Positions 1,582 through 29,268 of a stretch of 32,396 bases of DNA are shown one piece after another; the stretch's first letter is position 1; every line of letters begins with the position of its first letter. A program made the position numbers and the translations under genes. The DNA is from a virus. The stretch spans positions 1-32,396 of the IMG/VR virus record IMGVR_UViG_3300030101_001685. One strand, written 5' to 3'. The notes beneath the pieces were generated by a model. The model was given only the letters and a program-made list of their open reading frames with translations, had not been told where the DNA came from and ran no database searches.

Positions 1582-3207
1582 TTATCCTCCTAACGCTATC
1601 GCCAAGGCTGTAGCTTCGTCAGCCGCCGCAGTTGCCGTTGTTGCTCCAATGTCAGAAAGAACCTCAGAGGTACTTCTGCTCTCTAAACCATTTGCTGTAA
1701 ATCTTGCATATTCATCATCAGCAACAGAAGCACTATCAATCTTAACGGCATTGGTATTTGATATTCCAAAGGTTAGTGAAGCCTGAGCACCAATGTCACT
1801 CAACACTTCTGCTGTACTTCTACTCTCTAATCCGTTGGCTGTAAAACGAGCATACTCATCATCTGCTACTGAACTGCTATCCACCTTAACTGCATTCGTA
1901 TTGCTAATTCCAAAAGTTAAAGAGGCTTGCCCACCAATATCACTAAGAACTTCTGAAGCACTCCTACCTTCTATTGATGTACCTGACACTCTAAGAAAAT
2001 CATCATCAGCAACACCAGAAGTAAAAACTGGAAGATTACCATTTGATATACCTGTAGATAGTGTTGCTGTTGTAGTTATAGCTGTACCATTGAGCGTCAT
2101 AGCATCAGCTTCTAATGTACCATCTACATCAACATTGCCAGAAATATCCAAAGATGCCGCCACTATCTCACCACTAGCAGTTAATGTAGTTATGTTAGGA
2201 TTAGCTCCTGATCCTGCAAGAGAAGCCATATCCGCAATCACTGAACTTGTAGCCAAAAGGTTTAAGTCCTCCACAATGGCACTTGTAGCCAGGAGATTAA
2301 GGTCTGTAACAATATCGGAGGTAGCTAGGGTATTGAGGTCACTTACTATATCGGCAGTGGCGAGGGTATTCAGATCACTCACAATATCACTGGTTGCAAG
2401 GGTGTTTAAGTCTGACACTATATCGCTTGTAGCTAACGTATTAAGATCACTTACCACATCACTGGTGGCTAACGTATTTAAGTCTGACACTATATCACTG
2501 GTAGCCAAGGTATTGAGATCAGATACAAAGTCACTGGTTATAAGTGAAGCTACTCCTGCAACAGAAGAAACACTAGATGCTATACCGGCAACAGTTGTTA
2601 CATTAGAACTAATACCGGCTACTGTTGTGACGTTAGATGATATGCCGGCTACAGTGTTGATATTGGCGGTAATAGCTGAGAGAGAGTTTACATTTGCAAT
2701 AGTGGGTCCGGCTTCCGGGTTGCCGGTTGTGGCATTAAAACCTAGCACCGTTCCTAACCTGGAGGCTTTATCCGGGAGTGTCATTGATATTGTATCTATA
2801 TCATATTCCGGGGCTACAAGTGCTCGGTCCAGTTTCTTATCAATTTGCTGTTGAACCATAAGGCTTGTATCAAAGTCTGTTTCCAGTGATGCAGCAGTAA
2901 TGGGTCCACCTGTGCTATAGACTGACGTTCTCGCTAGAGGAACATTCGATACAATCGTTATTGTTTGGGAAGAGGTGGGGAAATTACTTGAAGTAAATCT
3001 TACTCTACCCGTTCCGTCCGTATTTATCTTGGAAGTTTCAGAACTAGAGTTCTCCACATTGTAATGGGTTCCGGCAGTTTTTAATGTACTGTCAACATAC
3101 ACTTTAACTTCAGTATGAGCATTTATTTGAAAAGCAAACTCAAAGGGTCCGGCACTACCATTCCCGGTATAACTTTTCCATCTTACTGTGCTCGTTATGT
3201 TTGTCAT
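1582..3207 (-). CDS. Tail fibre with T7-gp17-like N-terminus and repeat shaft
   Basis: The protein has 541 residues. Residues 1-125 match the T7 tail-fibre N-terminal domain, which attaches the fibre to the tail: 'SYTGNGSAGPFEFAFQI', 'EVKVYVDS', 'GGPITAASLETDFD' and 'QQQIDKKLDRAL'. Residues 170-224 hold about four 10-residue 'AGISSNVTTV' repeats. Residues 225-332 are nine 12-residue repeats (consensus SDIVSDLNTLAT) that likely form a helical or coiled shaft. Residues 416-511 are two 48-residue repeats plus the start of a third. The end is Ala-rich and lacks a known receptor-binding domain, so the tip may be supplied by the smaller fibre proteins downstream. Confidence 0.88.
   Translation of the reverse strand: MTNITSTVRWKSYTGNGSAGPFEFAFQINAHTEVKVYVDSTLKTAGTHYNVENSSSETSKINTDGTGRVRFTSSNFPTSSQTITIVSNVPLARTSVYSTGGPITAASLETDFDTSLMVQQQIDKKLDRALVAPEYDIDTISMTLPDKASRLGTVLGFNATTGNPEAGPTIANVNSLSAITANINTVAGISSNVTTVAGISSNVTTVAGIASSVSSVAGVASLITSDFVSDLNTLATSDIVSDLNTLATSDVVSDLNTLATSDIVSDLNTLATSDIVSDLNTLATADIVSDLNTLATSDIVTDLNLLATSAIVEDLNLLATSSVIADMASLAGSGANPNITTLTASGEIVAASLDISGNVDVDGTLEADAMTLNGTAITTTATLSTGISNGNLPVFTSGVADDDFLRVSGTSIEGRSASEVLSDIGGQASLTFGISNTNAVKVDSSSVADDEYARFTANGLESRSTAEVLSDIGAQASLTFGISNTNAVKIDSASVADDEYARFTANGLESRSTSEVLSDIGATTATAAADEATALAIALGG
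1675..1962 (-). repeat. Two tandem 144-bp repeats in the fibre gene
   Basis: Units 1819-1962 and 1675-1818 encode 48-residue copies (S-x-x-EVLSDIG ... FTANGLESR) that are nearly identical in protein. A third copy begins and stops after about ten residues. Such in-frame repeats let fibre length change by recombination. Confidence 0.85.
2212..2535 (-). repeat. Nine tandem 36-bp repeats in the fibre gene
   Basis: Nine in-frame 36-bp units encode the 12-residue consensus SDIVSDLNTLAT. Inner units are nearly invariant in protein, while the last three (in reading order) have diverged, ending in SSVIADMASLAG. DNA copies differ mainly at third codon positions, so selection acts on the protein repeat. 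There are no unique spacers, so it is not a CRISPR array. Confidence 0.9.
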
Positions 3208-3234
3208 TCTAAAACTACCTTCTAGTATTTATAC

Positions 3235-6200
3235 TTAATTACCAAGTGAATATCCATCCTTTTCTGGATTGTCGATCCTGTACAAGCGATTTAATCGACC
3301 TTGCGTCATTACACTCATCTTAGCCGCATCTCTGTGGTCACCCAGTATATCATTAAGTCTTTTAAACTTTTCATCATCAGGCAGACCGATATATTCTAAA
3401 TGTTCATCGGCATTCGGGTCTGTAACTATTGTATTTAATCTATTGCGTAACGTCATGTTTACATCATAAAAGTCATCACCAGGCATATTACCGTCCATAT
3501 CAGAGTTGTTGACGGCATCAACATAACTTAAATACTCTTCGGCTGTCATAGCATAACCGGCTACCTTGCGTGGGTGAAAACTAAACTCACCAAAGCCTAA
3601 CTGAGAAAGTCTCATTAGTTCTAAGTCTACTTGGTCATACGCTCCTGTTTGAATTCTCATTGGGTTGAAGGATTGGATAAGTTTTCCATTTTTCTTTAGC
3701 TGTTCCTCATCCATCTGCATAATTGGTTCATTCCAAAAATTTACATCATCGTATGTATTCTGAGAAAAAAGTGGATGCCTTGCTCTTGCTTGATTTAATA
3801 CCTCTAACCATCCTTTCCAAAAAGGACTTATATCTTCTATTCGCATACTGTTTATCTGATCGTCTGTTAGCATGGTATTAGATTTAAAAGGATCACTTAA
3901 CCTTTCAAGTGTGGCTTGGAAGGAAGTAGTTCCCATAAAAGGATAATCAACAAAGTTTCTTGCTAATGGACCTAATCCAAGACTGGTTGATGTTTCTACT
4001 TGACCGCCGACAGCCGTAGCAAATCCTGCTCCTCGTCTGCCTAAATAACGCATAAAAGCTTCTCCTCTGTTTTCTGCGTCATCATATTTATTGCCAAGTA
4101 TTTCCTGCATTTCAGCTAATCCTTGCATGAACGGTATATTGGATGAATATTCCATTGTAGTCATAAGCAAAGAATTAAGTAACTTTTCCTGTAAATCAGC
4201 ATCTTGGTTATATTCTACAAAGTTATTGTAATCTGCCGCCGCAACTAAAAGCATAGAAATAGGATCAAATCTATTGAAGGAATAGAACTTATAGGTGTCA
4301 TCATCTTGCTTAATACCTATAGAGGTAGAGGGTACGTTTGCCCCCTTGTTGTAAATAGCTCTAGCCTTCCTATTACCCGGACCTGTACCGGTTACGATAA
4401 CATCATCTCCGTAGTATCCCGATGTTAGGGCAATCATAGATCCTATAACACCCCACCCGGTTATAAGTTTACTAAGTGCCTCATCAAACTCACGACCTTC
4501 ACCTTTAATTAATGCTTTCATAGTAGGGTACGGGTTTATAGATCTGTCTGCGACTTCCTTGAAAATATTAGTTGGTGTTTTGAAAAATGGTACACCTAAA
4601 ACTTTAGCTACATGATTATTAAATAATGAGTTGCCGCCTTGAGCTATAGTCCCCATGAAACGTCCATCGGCTGTAATTGGTGCTTGAAAGGTTTCCTTAA
4701 GTGATACCTCTCTTTCTCTTTTTAAAACATCTGGCGGTGGATCATTTAAATATTTAGTGTACATTGCTGAAGCATACTCTTGTGCCTCGTCTTGACTAAA
4801 ACCTGCACTTAATCGTTTCTCAAATTCTATATGCTGTGCTCTGTATGCCTCCTGATAACGTACTCTTCTGCGTATCATTACCTTAAAATATTCATCTTCA
4901 GCCGCTAGAAATCGTCCAGGTAGTCTTGTAGCAATACCCATAATATTTATAAAAGCCGGCATAAAATTACCCTGCTGTACCTGCTCCATGATATCTGCGA
5001 TATTGTTTGTATCACCTAATGCTAGTTCTCTGATATCTAACTTAGACATAAGATCGCCACTTTCACCCGTTACCATTGTACGAGCCATAAGTTTAAACGC
5101 ATCCTTCTGAGCCATAAGAGATCCATGCAGAAACGCTTGTGTTTCTATTAACGTTGCCCGGTCATCACCGGCACCAAAAAAGTCTCTTCTAATATTTCCA
5201 ATAACACCGGCTACACCTGTTTCAGCTAAGCGTTGAAGTTGAAAGGCACTATTACCGGCTACGTTTACTGTGTGCGTTACTGGTGAAGAGAGAAGGGCAT
5301 TAATGTAGGCTTCCATCATAAAATCTATTGTCTTACGTCCATACGTTGCCGTCTTTGAAAGATAATCTGGGGTACGTCTGCTCGGTAAAGTGGCTACAAC
5401 AGCTAGGTCATAAAGTGCTTCTTTTTCTTCTAGCTCCGATAGTATTTGGTTTGTAGCACTGACTGATTGCATATCCATAGACGGACCATAGTTACCGCCA
5501 ATACCTAACCGTGTATCCATATCAATAACTTTCTGGGCATGAGATCCGACTGCTAATGTACGTCCGGCTTCACTCATAGCACCACTGACTTGGGCGGCTA
5601 GATTTTCTGTTATTACTCTAAGTTTTTGAAATTTCCTATATTCACTTGCAAATTCTTCTTGTGAAATTGTACCCTCTGCTTTTCTTTTTATAATACTTGA
5701 CGCTCCATACTTTGCTTCGTCTGATAGACGTTTCATCATTAATAGACCGCCTAAAACCTCCTCTGGCTTCATCGTTTCACCGGGCTTACGCATCAATGTC
5801 TTTTTTGAAATCTCAAACAATCCCATTTGGTTAGCAAGTTTTGTCATGTCTTCAATAGACATTTTACCTCTACGGGCAAACTTAAACAGCTCTATGTTTT
5901 GTGCTTTTAACTGGTTTAGAAAATCATAAGAGGATGGATCGTCGGCATCCAATTCCATTTTTTTCATACCCTTGTACAATGTTATAGCGTCTATTAATAT
6001 ATCTTCCCCATCAAAAATATCGCCCAGTCTACCCATGTTAAGACCCGGACCCTTGTATCCATTGTCTGTAAATACCTCCATCAAACTTTCGATGTCTTTA
6101 TCTCTAGCGTCTGGCAGAACTACAGTCTTGCCGATAACTTCTGGGGTATCTGTAGGTAGGTCTTTACCGAATGTCTCAGCTTCAGCACTTCTACCTAAGT

Positions 6201-21496: not shown

Positions 21497-21908
21497 CGGT
21501 TGGTCCTACCATCTGCACTTCTACGACTGCCGGCTTATCTACATTTCTTTCCTGCTCCAACAGACCCGATGCCTTGGCTAGTGTCTGCAACACTCTCACC
21601 TTGTCGATCATTTCAATCTCAATCGTATTGCCAAGTTCACTGGGAATAACCCGGATCTTTTTTATGGCGGCGAGAACGGCTTCAGGTATATCATCAGACG
21701 ATTTAACCACTGTCCGACCATCTGCTGTCCAGGTCATAACATCCGAAATTTTTGCTGTAGAAAGATTTATCAATTCCTGGGCTAACATATCCCGGTTGTC
21801 ATAAATAACATCTGATCCACCCACGCTACGTCTTATCTTTCGGACACTGCCCAAGTCTTTTAGGCTTGGAAGAGGTAGTCTATTTTTTGGTTTAGAACGG
21901 GATTTCAT
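21486..21908 (-). CDS. terS: Terminase small subunit (putative)
   Basis: This 140-residue protein has a basic N-terminus (MKSRSKPKNRLPLPS), then 'ELINLSTAKISDVMTWTADG', 'TVVKSSDDIPEAVLAAIKKI' and 'EMIDKVRVLQTLAKASGLLE'. The order 'sd-v-w--dG-v-vk-sddlp----aIkki---' then 'DK---L--La---Gl' is that of small terminases, which recognise the pac site and load the motor. It starts inside the ssb gene (17-nt overlap) and is two genes before the large subunit. The N-terminal HTH is not obvious. Confidence 0.8.
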   Translation of the reverse strand: MKSRSKPKNRLPLPSLKDLGSVRKIRRSVGGSDVIYDNRDMLAQELINLSTAKISDVMTWTADGRTVVKSSDDIPEAVLAAIKKIRVIPSELGNTIEIEMIDKVRVLQTLAKASGLLEQERNVDKPAVVEVQMVGPTDDT

Positions 21909-22296
21909 CGTCTATATCATTTCCAGTTGGAAGATTTGGTTGTGATGTATCAGATTGACCACCCAGTAACGTAATACCGCCGGAATAATTCCTCACCACT
22001 ACTTCTGTTTTATACCTGTCATTGCCGGATTGATCCTGCCACTTACGGGTTTCTAGCTGACCCTCGACCAGTACCTGCTTTCCTTTTTTGAGATAGGCTT
22101 CACACATACCCATCATGCTCTGATTAAACACTGCAATAGAATGCCATTGTGTTTTTTCTTGTTTAGAGCCGGTGTTTTTATCCTTCCATTTCTCTGTAGT
22201 TGCTATGGAAAAATTACAGACCTTATCTGTATTGTTTTGAAATGTTCGTATCTCAGCATCTTTACCAAGATTTCCTATAAGCATTACTTTATTCAT
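21892..22296 (-). CDS. ssb: Single-stranded DNA-binding protein
   Basis: This 134-residue OB-fold SSB shows 'MNKVMLIGNLGKDAEIRTF', 'VCNFSIATTEKWKDK', 'TQWHSIAVFNQ', 'YLKKGKQVLVEGQLETRKWQ' and 'YKTEVVVRNYSGGITLLGG'. It ends DIDDEIPF, the acidic tip that recruits replication and repair proteins in bacterial SSBs. It coats single strands during replication and with the ERF/exonuclease pair. CAGGAG lies upstream of the ATG. Length is slightly short of host SSBs (150-180), the difference being the linker. Confidence 0.95.
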   Translation of the reverse strand: MNKVMLIGNLGKDAEIRTFQNNTDKVCNFSIATTEKWKDKNTGSKQEKTQWHSIAVFNQSMMGMCEAYLKKGKQVLVEGQLETRKWQDQSGNDRYKTEVVVRNYSGGITLLGGQSDTSQPNLPTGNDIDDEIPF

Positions 22297-22447: not shown

Positions 22448-22463
22448 CTAGACGTTCATCTAG
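22448..22463. promoter_or_regulatory. Operator-like inverted repeat CTAGACG-TT-CATCTAG
   Basis: It matches the perfect site at 27075-27092 except for one arm base (CATCTAG for CGTCTAG) and a 2-nt spacer. It lies over the stop codon of the replication gene, just upstream of the ssb leader. See the copies at 27075, 29245 and, weaker, 30899. Confidence 0.5.
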
Positions 22464-23376
22464 TAAACGGAACAGTACGGATCTTCTTCTTACTTGCTGT
22501 CCTCTTAATGATCGATGCAACGTCCATAGCCTTGGCTATCAATGCGTTTTCGAAGAACTTCATACTATACGGTGGACGTTTCTGTTGTTTGCTATGATGT
22601 TTAATAGAACTGGTTATGACTTTAAGTATCTTATCTTCACTAACCTTTTCCAGGTAACCTTCGACAATGGCTTCCTGTCTCGTGTCATGTACCCAAAGCC
22701 CTCTCCCTCCAAATTCTTTTTCTAGCTCGTGACTGTATCGATTGCATATCTCTGTAGCGATTTCTCTCTTACTCTTCTTATTCTTTAGTTCTATAAGCTT
22801 ATCTACTACCTGGGGGTTGTGAGTAAGCGGCACAACGTCAGGTTGTGAAACTGTACTATCTTCTACAACATGAGGTTGTGGAATTGTGGATAACTTTGTC
22901 TCTTCATTGACCTTATTTATGGTATCTTCAGCATCCTGAACCTCTAGATATTCGGGTTTGTTATGAGCAATAACATCTTCAGTTGTCACACCCGGATCAT
23001 AGATTATCCTCCAGGTAGCTCCCTTTCTTCCCTTGCTACGCAATGCATATTCTTTAATAACCTTCTCTAAATAGCCGCACTTCTCCAGTGTTACCATCTG
23101 CCGTGATACACCCTGCTGAGATATACCTAATCTCTTAGCAATAGACATCTGGTTGGGATAAGCTAACCCACTTCTACCATTCGCATGACAGCATACTGCA
23201 CCCATTACTCTTATAGCGGCGCCGCCTATCCTAGCATCAGCAAAGATCCGGGAAGGTAGTATAGAATACCCAGAAGGTGGCAAACTATTATTCGTAGATC
23301 TACAGTGCTCTACTGGTGGACGCAATACCTCATACCGTGCCTCCTTAATCTGCTCTAGCTCTTCACTATCTCTCAT
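22456..23376 (-). CDS. Winged-helix replication initiator-like protein
   Basis: The protein has 306 residues from the ATG at 23376. This start is chosen because AGGA is 6-7 nt upstream and it lies just after the previous stop; a start at 23403 would overlap that gene. Residues 36-106 form a winged helix of the kind found at the N-terminus of phage O-type replication proteins: 'YSILPSRIFADARIGGAAIR', 'MSIAKRLGISQQGVSRQMVT' and 'LEKCGYLEKV'. Residues 160-195 are a Pro-rich linker with three 'PxVV' copies, encoded by the iteron DNA at 22815-22893. The C-terminal 100 residues are helical and basic, perhaps the contact for host helicase loader. No primase or helicase motif is present. Confidence 0.75.
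   Translation of the reverse strand: MRDSEELEQIKEARYEVLRPPVEHCRSTNNSLPPSGYSILPSRIFADARIGGAAIRVMGAVCCHANGRSGLAYPNQMSIAKRLGISQQGVSRQMVTLEKCGYLEKVIKEYALRSKGRKGATWRIIYDPGVTTEDVIAHNKPEYLEVQDAEDTINKVNEETKLSTIPQPHVVEDSTVSQPDVVPLTHNPQVVDKLIELKNKKSKREIATEICNRYSHELEKEFGGRGLWVHDTRQEAIVEGYLEKVSEDKILKVITSSIKHHSKQQKRPPYSMKFFENALIAKAMDVASIIKRTASKKKIRTVPFTR
22815..22893. other. Candidate replication origin: iterons plus a perfect DnaA box
   Basis: GGTTGTG occurs at 22815-22821, 22841-22847 and 22874-22880. The last two belong to inverted repeats CACAAC-N5-GTTGTG (22831-22847) and ACAAC-N5-GTTGT (22865-22879), and the 24-bp units 22831-22854 and 22864-22887 agree at 19 of 24 positions. Four bases past the third GGTTGTG is TGTGGATAA (22885-22893), the complement of the consensus DnaA box TTATCCACA. 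A T/A-rich run follows. The array lies in the linker-coding middle of the replication gene, as the lambda origin lies inside gene O. Confidence 0.6.
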
Positions 23377-23378
23377 AA

Positions 23379-23582
23379 CTAATCCTGTTCCGGCTTTAAA
23401 CATAGTGTAGGACGATACTTACAGCTCCACATCTCAGGTCTGTTGAGAGGAGGCGGCATATAAGTTGGGAGCTGACGTATAAACATAGTACATTTCACAT
23501 CTTCATCCGGGTAATACTTATCTGCCATTGCCTGGCAAGCATCAGGATCCGTAAAATTCATAAACACCATCAGAACGTACAT
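23379..23582 (-). CDS. Hypothetical Cys-containing protein (67 aa)
   Basis: The protein begins MYVLMVFMNFTDPDACQAMA and contains four cysteines (near residues 16, 30, 53 and 61) and a Pro-rich C-terminal half (TYMPPPLNRPEMW). The start at 23582 is chosen because GGAG lies 6 nt upstream and it follows the previous stop directly; an ATG at 23594 overlaps that gene. The N-terminus is hydrophobic but too short and too acidic nearby for a clear signal peptide. I do not recognise it. It lies between an HTH protein and the replication protein. Confidence 0.6.
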   Translation of the reverse strand: MYVLMVFMNFTDPDACQAMADKYYPDEDVKCTMFIRQLPTYMPPPLNRPEMWSCKYRPTLCLKPEQD

Positions 23583-23583
23583 C

Positions 23584-23964
23584 TTAGTCTCCATTGACAG
23601 ACTTGAACGTCACTTTGACGGGGGTACGCTTAAATCTCTTGGTCAGAGTTTGATAGAAAGATTTACTGTCTTTGTAATTTTCAAGAGCATTTAATAAATG
23701 TCTTTGCTTCTCGTATTCTAGGACAAGTAATCTCTCATAGCTCCAACAGTCCGGGCATCCATGATCAATCCGCTGTATGCTGTTGAGATACTTCTCTACA
23801 TAAGTTTTATGTACAACATAACGACCACCTAATTTCCATGATGGAACCTCACCACTTCTTATTACTTTCAGAGCATGGTTATGAGTAATACCTACCATCT
23901 TGGCAAAGTCTTTAACGCTCATACCAACCTGTACAACATCCTGAGATACACCATCATGATACAT
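23584..23964 (-). CDS. Excisionase-like helix-turn-helix protein
   Basis: The protein has 126 residues. Residues 15-62 are a MerR/excisionase-type winged HTH: 'MSVKDFAKMVGITHNHALKV', 'IRSGEVPSWKLGGRYVVHKT' and 'YVEKYL'. The 'G..P..k.GgrY.v' wing is typical. The C-terminal half is a charged helix with 'CPDCW'. GGAGG lies 6 nt before the ATG at 23964, supporting this start. It could be a recombination directionality factor for the serine recombinase or a regulator of the leftward operon; nothing decides between these. Confidence 0.72.
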   Translation of the reverse strand: MYHDGVSQDVVQVGMSVKDFAKMVGITHNHALKVIRSGEVPSWKLGGRYVVHKTYVEKYLNSIQRIDHGCPDCWSYERLLVLEYEKQRHLLNALENYKDSKSFYQTLTKRFKRTPVKVTFKSVNGD

Positions 23965-24277
23965 CGTTATCCTCCTGGCTACGCTTTTGCTTCAGGATCT
24001 CTTCTACATTTGCCTCAATCTGATTGTATTGCTCCAGGTATTCCGGATCCATTTTGTACTGATCATGCTTCTTTTTATAAAAGACAGCAGTCGTGTGATC
24101 TTTACTAAACAAGCGACCTATCTGAGGATAGCTATACTCCAAGAACTTACGACATAATGACGTAAACATAACTCGTAGTTTAAGTAACTTGCCCATAACC
24201 CTGTCTCCTACTTTGTACTGCTCAAACGAAACCTTGGTGGTGTATTCTATTGCCCACTTAATATCCCGTAAGCTCAG
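23954..24277 (-). CDS. Orphan DnaA domain IV-like DNA-binding protein
   Basis: From the CTG at 24277 this is 107 residues. 'LRDIKWAIEYTTKVSFEQY', then 'FLEYSYPQIGRLFSKDHTTA', fits the DnaA C-terminal domain from its first helix to the signature helix-turn-helix; the DHTT quartet that contacts the DnaA box is kept. There is no AAA+ ATPase part. The start is uncertain: an ATG at 24424 lies 150 nt inside the DUF1064 gene; an ATG at 24196 with AGGAG 8 nt upstream would lose the first helix; the CTG overlaps the previous TGA. The likely target is the DnaA box at 22885-22893. Confidence 0.72.
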   Translation of the reverse strand: MSLRDIKWAIEYTTKVSFEQYKVGDRVMGKLLKLRVMFTSLCRKFLEYSYPQIGRLFSKDHTTAVFYKKKHDQYKMDPEYLEQYNQIEANVEEILKQKRSQEDNDVS

Positions 24278-24597
24278 ACCTCCATTATCTTGGTTCCGGC
24301 ATAAAATGCCTCGACCAACTTCTTCTTTAAGCGATACACCGGGGTTTTCATTCCCTTCACATCCTCCACCACTCGCATATTCTTTTTCTGATCGAAATAC
24401 CTGAAATCCGCCTGATAACGACATATCTTTTCTCCCTTATAATTGATCTCATATATTGGTTGTAATTCTAGGTGACTGATCTCACCTGCCTCTTCCAAAA
24501 GCTTTAACTCTTGGTATCTCCTTGCCTCTTTCTTGGATGCAAACCAAATCCCGTCTACATTGGTTCGTACCGCTCGGTATTTGCTATAATTAGCCAT
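24274..24597 (-). CDS. DUF1064 family nuclease-like protein
   Basis: This 107-residue protein shows 'YRAVRTNVDGIWFASKKEAR', 'YQELKLLEEAGEISHLELQP' and 'YQADFRYFDQKKNMRVVEDV', then 'KGMKT'. The E (in KKEA), D (in ADF) and E/K (in VEDVKG) fit a PD-(D/E)XK fold, and DUF1064 proteins are often annotated as phage endonucleases that act on branched DNA; activity is not proven. The ATG at 24597 is chosen over a GTG at 24615 because family members begin just before 'KY.A', and it overlaps the previous gene's stop by 8 nt. Confidence 0.85.
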   Translation of the reverse strand: MANYSKYRAVRTNVDGIWFASKKEARRYQELKLLEEAGEISHLELQPIYEINYKGEKICRYQADFRYFDQKKNMRVVEDVKGMKTPVYRLKKKLVEAFYAGTKIMEV

Positions 24598-25223: not shown

Positions 25224-25988
25224 ATGACTAAAGCAGGGAAGCCACATAGAGGGGTCTATCACGCTTACGTCCGGGTCAGTACTGAGAAGCAGGATCTAGA
25301 CCGACAGCAACATATCATTAAGAAATACCTTAATGGCGGTGATTATACACTCAAATGGTACATCGATGAGGGTTACAGTGGTTCACTGGACCCAGAGGAA
25401 AGACCGGCATTGAAACAGTGCTTGTCGGATGCATTCAAGAATAAACGTAAGGGAGGGAAGGGTACTATAATAATATCTGATACTTCTCGTTTTGCTCGTA
25501 AGCGATACATGGCAGAGAAGTTCTTTGTGGAACAAATGTCTAAAGGTAAGTGTTCCTTAATCGTAGCAGAGCAACCACTCCTAGAAGAGGTGCCGGATGA
25601 TATTAAGATGAAGCTCCTTCTAGATAAAGCTGACAGTGACCAGAAATATAGGGAAGAAATTAGTCTCAAAACAAAGCAGTCTCTGGACGCTATCAAGGCT
25701 GAGATAAATGCCAAAGGATTTAAGTTATCCAAACTCGGTAAGAAGATTACCAAGCTCGGTGTTCATGGTGAGATGGAGAAGGCACGGAAGCAAGCGACTA
25801 AGATAACTATTTCCAAAGCTGATGCCCATGCCGCTTATTGGTATCCAGAAATCCAGGACAGAATAAACCGGGGAATGGGTTACCGGGATATAGCAGAAGA
25901 TTTTAATTTTCGTGGCAAGAAAACTGCCAAGGGTGGTGAATGGCATGCGTCAACTATTTCTAATATTGTAAAGAGGATAAACAAATGA
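25224..25988 (+). CDS. Small serine recombinase (resolvase/invertase family)
   Basis: The protein has 254 residues. The catalytic N-terminal domain shows 'YVRVSTEKQDLDRQ' with Arg17 and nucleophile Ser19, and 'IISDTSRFARKR' with Asp86, Arg89 and Arg92. The C-terminal part (about 198-254) has the helix-turn-helix seen in recombinases ('INRGMGYRDIAEDFNFRGKK', 'GEWHASTISNIVKRI'). Large serine integrases are 450-700 residues with a zinc ribbon and coiled coil; these are missing, so this is not a classical phage integrase. Roles: multimer resolution, inversion, or integration by a minimal enzyme. AGGAG is 7 nt upstream. Confidence 0.88.
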   Translation: MTKAGKPHRGVYHAYVRVSTEKQDLDRQQHIIKKYLNGGDYTLKWYIDEGYSGSLDPEERPALKQCLSDAFKNKRKGGKGTIIISDTSRFARKRYMAEKFFVEQMSKGKCSLIVAEQPLLEEVPDDIKMKLLLDKADSDQKYREEISLKTKQSLDAIKAEINAKGFKLSKLGKKITKLGVHGEMEKARKQATKITISKADAHAAYWYPEIQDRINRGMGYRDIAEDFNFRGKKTAKGGEWHASTISNIVKRINK

Positions 25989-28347: not shown

Positions 28348-29003
28348 GTAAAACACAAACAAATGAAATAGAAGGTATTAAAGCCTTTGTTAAATTCCGT
28401 ACATCAATCCCCGGATTGCATAAAGATGCCAAGGCACATAATTATAAATATGTCAGCCTTGATAACATCATGGATAATATTATTCCATTGGCAGAGGCTA
28501 ACGGCTTTCGTATTTCTCATCAACAAAGTGAAGATGAGAAGGGTGAGTTTCTAGTAACAAAAATAGAGCACGTTTCTGGATGGACAGATGCCACCCGAAC
28601 ACCGCTACGGTATGCAGTAAATAATGATACTGGAAAGACGATGCAGTCAATGGGTTCTGCACTAACTTATGCTAGAAGGTATGGCATTAGTTGCTTGCTA
28701 GGTATCACGGCGGATGAGGATGATGATGGTTCAAAAGCAGGAAAGGCAAAGTACACATTAAAACTGCCTAAGACACAGAAATATCCTGGAGGTCAGGATG
28801 TTCCAATCAATGATCTTCATCAGTTCGCAATTAAAATGGATGAATTCATGGGTAATGTTATTAAAGCCGGTAACCCAAATTATGGCAAAGGAGCCTTAAA
28901 ATATTTACAGCTTAATAATAAAATACCACTTGAAGAATTAAAAACTAACAACGTGGAAATGTACAACCAAATCACTCAAAAGTTTGGAGCTTACGATGAA
29001 TAA
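28344..29003 (+). CDS. erf: ERF-family single-strand annealing protein
   Basis: The protein has 219 residues. Residues 30-45 ('DAKAHNYKYVSLDNIM') and 101-129 ('QSMGSALTYARRYGISCLLG', 'ITADEDDDG') are the ERF signature. P22 Erf-type proteins form rings on single-stranded DNA, anneal complementary strands and circularise or recombine phage DNA. The partner nuclease lies directly upstream with a 4-nt overlap. The C-terminal 80 residues are basic and helical. Phages that package concatemers by terminase need this type of function when they lack their own replisome. Confidence 0.93.
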   Translation: MSKTQTNEIEGIKAFVKFRTSIPGLHKDAKAHNYKYVSLDNIMDNIIPLAEANGFRISHQQSEDEKGEFLVTKIEHVSGWTDATRTPLRYAVNNDTGKTMQSMGSALTYARRYGISCLLGITADEDDDGSKAGKAKYTLKLPKTQKYPGGQDVPINDLHQFAIKMDEFMGNVIKAGNPNYGKGALKYLQLNNKIPLEELKTNNVEMYNQITQKFGAYDE

Positions 29004-29268
29004 TATTATGTCACAAATAAGTACAATGTCTAAATTACCACCGACCACACGTCAAATGGATGTATTTAAATTTATAATCAAGCATATGGAAAAAAAGCAC
29101 GTTGCCCCAACCATTCTACAGATCGGTAGAAAACTTAAACTTGCTTCTCCGTCAGTGGTTCACAGACATTTGAGAGAATTAGAAAAGAAGGGATATTTAT
29201 ATCGAGAAAAAGGTAAGCGACAAGCAATGATAGTGTTGCGAAACCTAGACGGATCGTCTATAATCTAG
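28996..29268 (+). CDS. LexA-type DNA-binding domain without peptidase
   Basis: The protein has 90 residues from the ATG at 28996, which has GGAG 6 nt upstream inside erf. 'LPPTTRQMDVFKFIIKHMEK', 'APTILQIGRKLKLASPSVVH' and 'RHLRELEKKGYLYREKGKRQ' follow the LexA N-terminal winged helix from 'LT.RQ..vl.fI' to the wing. The protein stops where the LexA linker would begin, so it has no Ser/Lys self-cleavage domain and could not be inactivated by RecA. It may bind host SOS sites or phage operators such as the one overlapping its own 3' end (29245-29261). Confidence 0.82.
   Translation: MNNIMSQISTMSKLPPTTRQMDVFKFIIKHMEKKHVAPTILQIGRKLKLASPSVVHRHLRELEKKGYLYREKGKRQAMIVLRNLDGSSII
29236..29264 (+). promoter_or_regulatory. 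Sigma-70-type promoter with overlapping operator
   Basis: TTGCGA (29236-29241), 17 nt, then TATAAT (29259-29264): the -10 is a perfect match and the spacing ideal. The inverted repeat CTAGACG-GAT-CGTCTAT (29245-29261) fills the spacer and reaches into the -10. It lies in the last codons of the LexA-like gene and points into the terminator at 29303. Confidence 0.5.

Follow-up and report, generated by a model that had tools for sequence, protein, structure and literature searches.

We analysed a 32,396-nt stretch of viral DNA, hereafter the window (IMG/VR record IMGVR_UViG_3300030101_001685, positions 1–32,396), which carries inverted repeats, a DnaA box and an AT-rich tract inside an O-like replication initiator gene. 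The gene lies on the minus strand at 22456–23376 and, according to Pfam, PHROG and AlphaFold, encodes an N-terminal winged helix, a disordered linker and a helical C-terminal domain. Its reading frame stays open up to an upstream ATG at 23403. The start codon is nevertheless likely to be the one at 23376, where an earlier note on this DNA had placed it, because the related locus L002 retains an ATG there but lacks the upstream one.

Iterons and DnaA box in the linker-coding region

Along the coding strand, the array begins with a consensus DnaA box, TTATCCACA (22893–22885), which is followed after a 4-bp gap by iteron 1 (CACAAC-CTCAT-GTTGT, 22865–22880), then by iteron 2 (CACAAC-CTGAC-GTTGTG, 22831–22847) and by a degenerate iteron 3 (CACAAC-N6-GTAGTA, approximately 22803–22821), all on the minus strand. 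The spacing is 33 bp from iteron 1 to iteron 2, and the third arm lies 26 bp beyond. The array occupies offsets 483–570 of 921 in the gene, within the initiator coding sequence, and is found at the same place in relatives. In the AlphaFold model, linker residues 163–187 fall below a predicted local distance difference test score (pLDDT) of 50, and this low-confidence segment is the linker that the iterons encode. The third CACAAC arm is in codon frame 0, whereas the other two copies are in frame 1, and it therefore encodes different residues. The earlier note had described two units at 22831–22854 and 22864–22887 with 19/24 identical positions, a GGTTGTG at 22815 and the DnaA box at 22885–22893 on the minus strand; each proved exact in both letters and coordinates.

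Directly past the last iteron lies an AT-rich tract (22757–22796, minus strand), a candidate unwinding element with 70% AT compared with 57.5% for the whole gene, and TAGAACTA is found within it at 22786–22793. The perfect TTATNCACA occurs as a single copy in the window, where the number of TTATCCACA expected from composition is 0.37.

Conservation of the array among related initiator genes

Eighty related loci were gathered through TerL alignment, and an iterated profile search of these, the earlier loci and the Methylophilales phage MEP301 returned 59 O-like reading frames, 56 of which were at least 600 bases long. The non-redundant initiator gene set used for 7-mer and box counts comprised 49 genes, and AT and TAGWACTA counts were made on 50 genes. 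No relatives were found in the bacterial genomes and plasmids searched, and no cultured phage had a full-length relative of the initiator, MEP301 giving partial matches only.

To hold both peptide and codon usage constant, synonymous codons were permuted within the gene. Two matching dyads no more than 120 bp apart occurred once in the real gene compared with a mean of 0.0002 per shuffle (P = 0.0004, 5000 shuffles), and repeated exact dyads were present in 15/56 homologues where 0.76 were expected from synonymous shuffles. The same statistic was zero for the positive control, lambda O, because the lambda iterons are imperfect and have other spacers; it is therefore conservative. A generic test of all repeated 7-mers was not significant for the window gene (direct repeats, P = 0.34; inverted repeats, P = 0.95), as its arms are only 5–6 bases long. 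An excess of repeated 7-mers at P < 0.01 was seen in 23 of the 49 non-redundant genes.

The arms and the DnaA box were unchanged in the two relatives L002 and L003, as was the CACAAC arm of the degenerate third iteron. In L003, whose protein is 79% identical, none of the 38 arm and box bases had changed, compared with 7/10 spacer bases and 167/873 other bases. At third codon positions, the changes were 0/12 in the motifs and 95/295 elsewhere. The linker peptide varies with the spacer among relatives, PH (or PD) becoming HH or QE while the arms are kept. The earlier note had held that an origin would be contradicted by relatives that kept the protein residues and randomised the DNA. We found the opposite, since relatives change the spacer and the amino acids and keep the arms and the box.

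In related uncultured phages, many homologues have an iteron set of their own at this position, with differing sequences. The repeats include ATAACA-N5-TGTTAT in L020, L025 and L059, GTCAAC in L008–L010, TATTCC-GGAATA in L056 and L065, and ACAACC-N6-GGTTGT in L012, L013 and L075. The differing iterons of distant relatives are often accompanied by the same DnaA box and an AT-rich tract. One locus, L071, has a second O-like gene (2862–3561) beside the first (3890–4628), with eight AGTGCG words in approximately 90 bp, the strongest dyad array that we saw.

The DnaA box was enriched in the initiator genes. TTATCCACA was present in 11/49 non-redundant genes, whereas 500 synonymous shuffles gave 1.0 on average and 6 at most. 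Over all loci, the initiator genes contained 15 copies in 49.7 kb and the remaining 700.7 kb contained 5, a comparison whose p-value is too small because related loci are not independent. In relatives, the boxes fall within the linker, 400–680 bases from the start of the reading frame, and in either orientation. Across the 50 genes, the 40 bases that follow the last iteron formed an AT peak of 0.72, compared with 0.57–0.60 over most of the gene; lambda O, by the same measure, peaks at 0.75 after its iterons. TAGWACTA was found in the AT-rich tract of 11/50 genes, in two reading frames, where 2.2 were expected, and is possibly a DNA motif of the unwinding region.

The initiator and the array as a probable replication origin

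The window initiator matched the Pfam family HTH_36 above cut-off, and most relatives matched PHROG replication-initiation and O-like families. The O-like PHROGs 391, 345 and 678 were matched by 24–27 of 38 members, and lambda O matches the same families. Lambda O matches Phage_rep_O (Pfam PF04492) at 6e-36, whereas the window protein and its relatives L060 and L013 matched HTH-type models only, and the initiator family profile did not recover lambda O at E ≤ 1. Comparison of the initiator with solved structures, by sequence and by fold, returned mostly generic winged-helix proteins with no convincing E-value.

The AlphaFold model contains a helix-turn-helix whose second helix starts at Q87. 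Where the helix residues are QQ, the iterons contain ACAAC in 11/11 members, compared with 2/44 among the others. KQ in close relatives goes with GTCAAC, and QP in the sisters of L024 and L028 goes with ATAACA. In a tree built without the helix columns, QQ had changed at least six times. The strongest indication that the O-like protein recognises the iterons in its own gene is this co-variation of helix and iteron.

The repeats, their conservation as DNA, the layout common to the family, the enrichment of the box, the peak in AT content and the co-variation of helix and iteron, all observed by sequence analysis, support a nested origin of the lambda type whose DnaA box is plasmid-like. We consider it very probable that the stretch is a phage replication origin lying within the coding sequence of its own initiator. 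From these features we infer how binding, dimerisation, opening and helicase delivery might proceed and which DnaA would act. The O-like winged helix, probably as a dimer, would bind the inverted-repeat iterons through a recognition helix starting at Gln87-Gln88. Occupation of neighbouring iterons would strain and open the AT-rich tract, on the side distal to the DnaA box, while the linker peptide would tolerate any amino acids that the iterons spell. Among the non-structural genes scanned in the record we recognised neither a helicase nor a P-like loader, so the phage probably depends on those of its host; DnaA bound to the box, 4 bp from iteron 1, may thus bring the host DnaB helicase or help to open the origin.

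Several observations weigh against this interpretation. The window has two and a half iterons compared with four in lambda, and the O-like gene of the cultured MEP301 is shorter, with no evident iteron array or perfect DnaA box. A perfect DnaA box is missing from most family members and is thus not a universal requirement. All three well-supported independent pairs in the tree agree on the link between helix and iteron, but three pairs do not suffice to test its significance. A loader could also be missing here simply because the record is possibly incomplete. Finally, the earlier note had proposed looking for a switch in GC skew near 22.8 kb, and there was none; the skew reverses near 24.8 kb, together with the direction of transcription. 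We rejected GC skew as an origin test, since it tracks transcription direction and is uninformative on the origin.

Could the DNA repeat merely mirror selection for a repeated protein feature, the peptide QPHVV, QPDVV, PQVV? The peptide is indeed repeated in the window, and the linker peptide also repeats in L014 and L020. This explanation is already contradicted, and we give it almost no credence: the DNA repeat disappears in synonymous shuffles although the peptide is unchanged, the third arm sits in another frame, relatives that swap PH or PD for HH or QE keep the arms, and the linker is predicted to be disordered. Alternatively, the repeats could be an operator through which the initiator represses or tunes transcription of its own operon, with replication starting elsewhere. 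A winged helix can act as a repressor, and the Pfam and solved-structure matches are mostly transcription regulators. However, the array lies approximately 480 bp within the gene and not at a promoter, the PHROG matches are replication initiators, and an operator has no need of the DnaA boxes and AT-rich tract that accompany the array across the family. We regard an operator as improbable.

A further question is which protein reads the box. The protein encoded just upstream of the initiator, at 23954–24424 (minus strand), is made up of DnaA domain IV, the DnaA-box-binding domain, and an unstructured N-terminus, with no ATPase. Its family profile matched domain IV of Escherichia coli DnaA (1j1v) at E = 6e-19, its model matched DnaA-DNA complexes (TMt 0.84–0.86), and all 20 family members matched Pfam Bac_DnaA_C, the window copy itself falling slightly below cut-off. 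Conservation of the protein extends to 22 loci of the group, and it resembles those of HTVC010P-type pelagiphages; HTVC010P and Greip likewise encode a DnaA-box-binding domain without an ATPase. The stretch could be an origin whose box is read by this phage protein in place of host DnaA, the phage protein serving as a structural helper or keeping the host initiator out. In favour, the protein keeps the domain IV fold and the aligned R75, R84, D109 and H110 of DnaA-box-binding domains. However, presence of the gene was not associated with presence of the box in relatives (Fisher P = 0.75). Moreover, HTVC010P-type pelagiphages have such a gene, and no O-like gene was found in the stretches read (HTVC010P, Greip and Hodr), nor any iteron-plus-box array in those of HTVC010P and Greip. 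As the gene does not track the boxes, host DnaA is the likelier ligand, the phage protein being a possible second one, and we think it unlikely that the phage protein takes the place of host DnaA. A fuller scheme is similarly doubtful: a DnaA-domain-only phage protein would occupy the box, replacing or excluding host DnaA and coupling phage firing to host initiation, and an iteron code (QQ/ACAAC, KQ/TCAAC, QP/ATAAC) would be set by the two leading helix residues.

If the array is the origin, it locates the start of replication in uncultured marine phages of a widespread group, and an origin is not discussed in the paper describing their nearest isolate. Such an iteron origin, nested in the initiator gene, would have a plasmid-like DnaA box and would have been re-created in many relatives with iterons that differ. 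Protein and target share one gene and co-vary, which makes the family a natural data set on joint specificity change in initiators and origins.

Comparison with known origins and neighbouring genes

The lambda origin lies in gene O and consists of inverted iterons followed by an A+T-rich tract (PMC5043065, PMC7466680). As in that origin, and in the 6-iteron version of the lambdoid phages P27 and 933W, the middle of the window's initiator gene, which codes for the linker, contains inverted-repeat iterons with an A+T-rich tract after them. The window differs from lambda in the sequence and wider spacing of its iterons (33 and 26 bp) and in the consensus DnaA box beside them. DnaA-box-like sites have been reported in lambda downstream of the pO promoter (PMC3985674), and TTATNCACA is absent from the lambda O gene. 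No counterpart of the P-like loader beside O in the lambda O/P system was recognised among the window's scanned non-structural genes; the gene after the initiator (21892–22296, minus strand) encodes a single-strand DNA-binding protein (Pfam SSB, E = 8e-35). Thus, "lambda-like", the term used in the earlier note, holds for the layout, with iterons in the linker-coding part and an AT-rich tract, but not as strict family membership, given that there was no Phage_rep_O match and no P-like loader was found.

A DnaA box beside iterons is known from iteron plasmids (PMC4980987, PMC5043065). The plasmid origins P1 oriR, RK2 oriV and pSC101 resemble the window in combining initiator iterons, DnaA boxes and an A+T-rich tract (PMC4980987, PMC5043065), whereas the window iterons are inverted repeats within the initiator gene. 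The closest isolate is MEP301 (portal 56%, TerL 64%), whose O-like winged helix is 35% identical.

Other genes of the window were noted in passing. A protein with an HTH_17 match (23584–23964, minus strand) was found in no other locus by profile search and is possibly a recent insertion upstream of the initiator. A serine recombinase with resolvase and short recombinase domains is encoded at 25224–25988 (plus strand), a region in which MEP301 also carries a recombinase family gene. The genes for an Erf-type annealing protein and a RecE-like exonuclease are followed by one at 28984–29268 (plus strand) for a protein of 94 residues that has the LexA DNA-binding domain but lacks a peptidase domain. 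Repeated DLNTLATSDIVS units are present in an open reading frame close to the left end of the window (1582–3207, minus strand).
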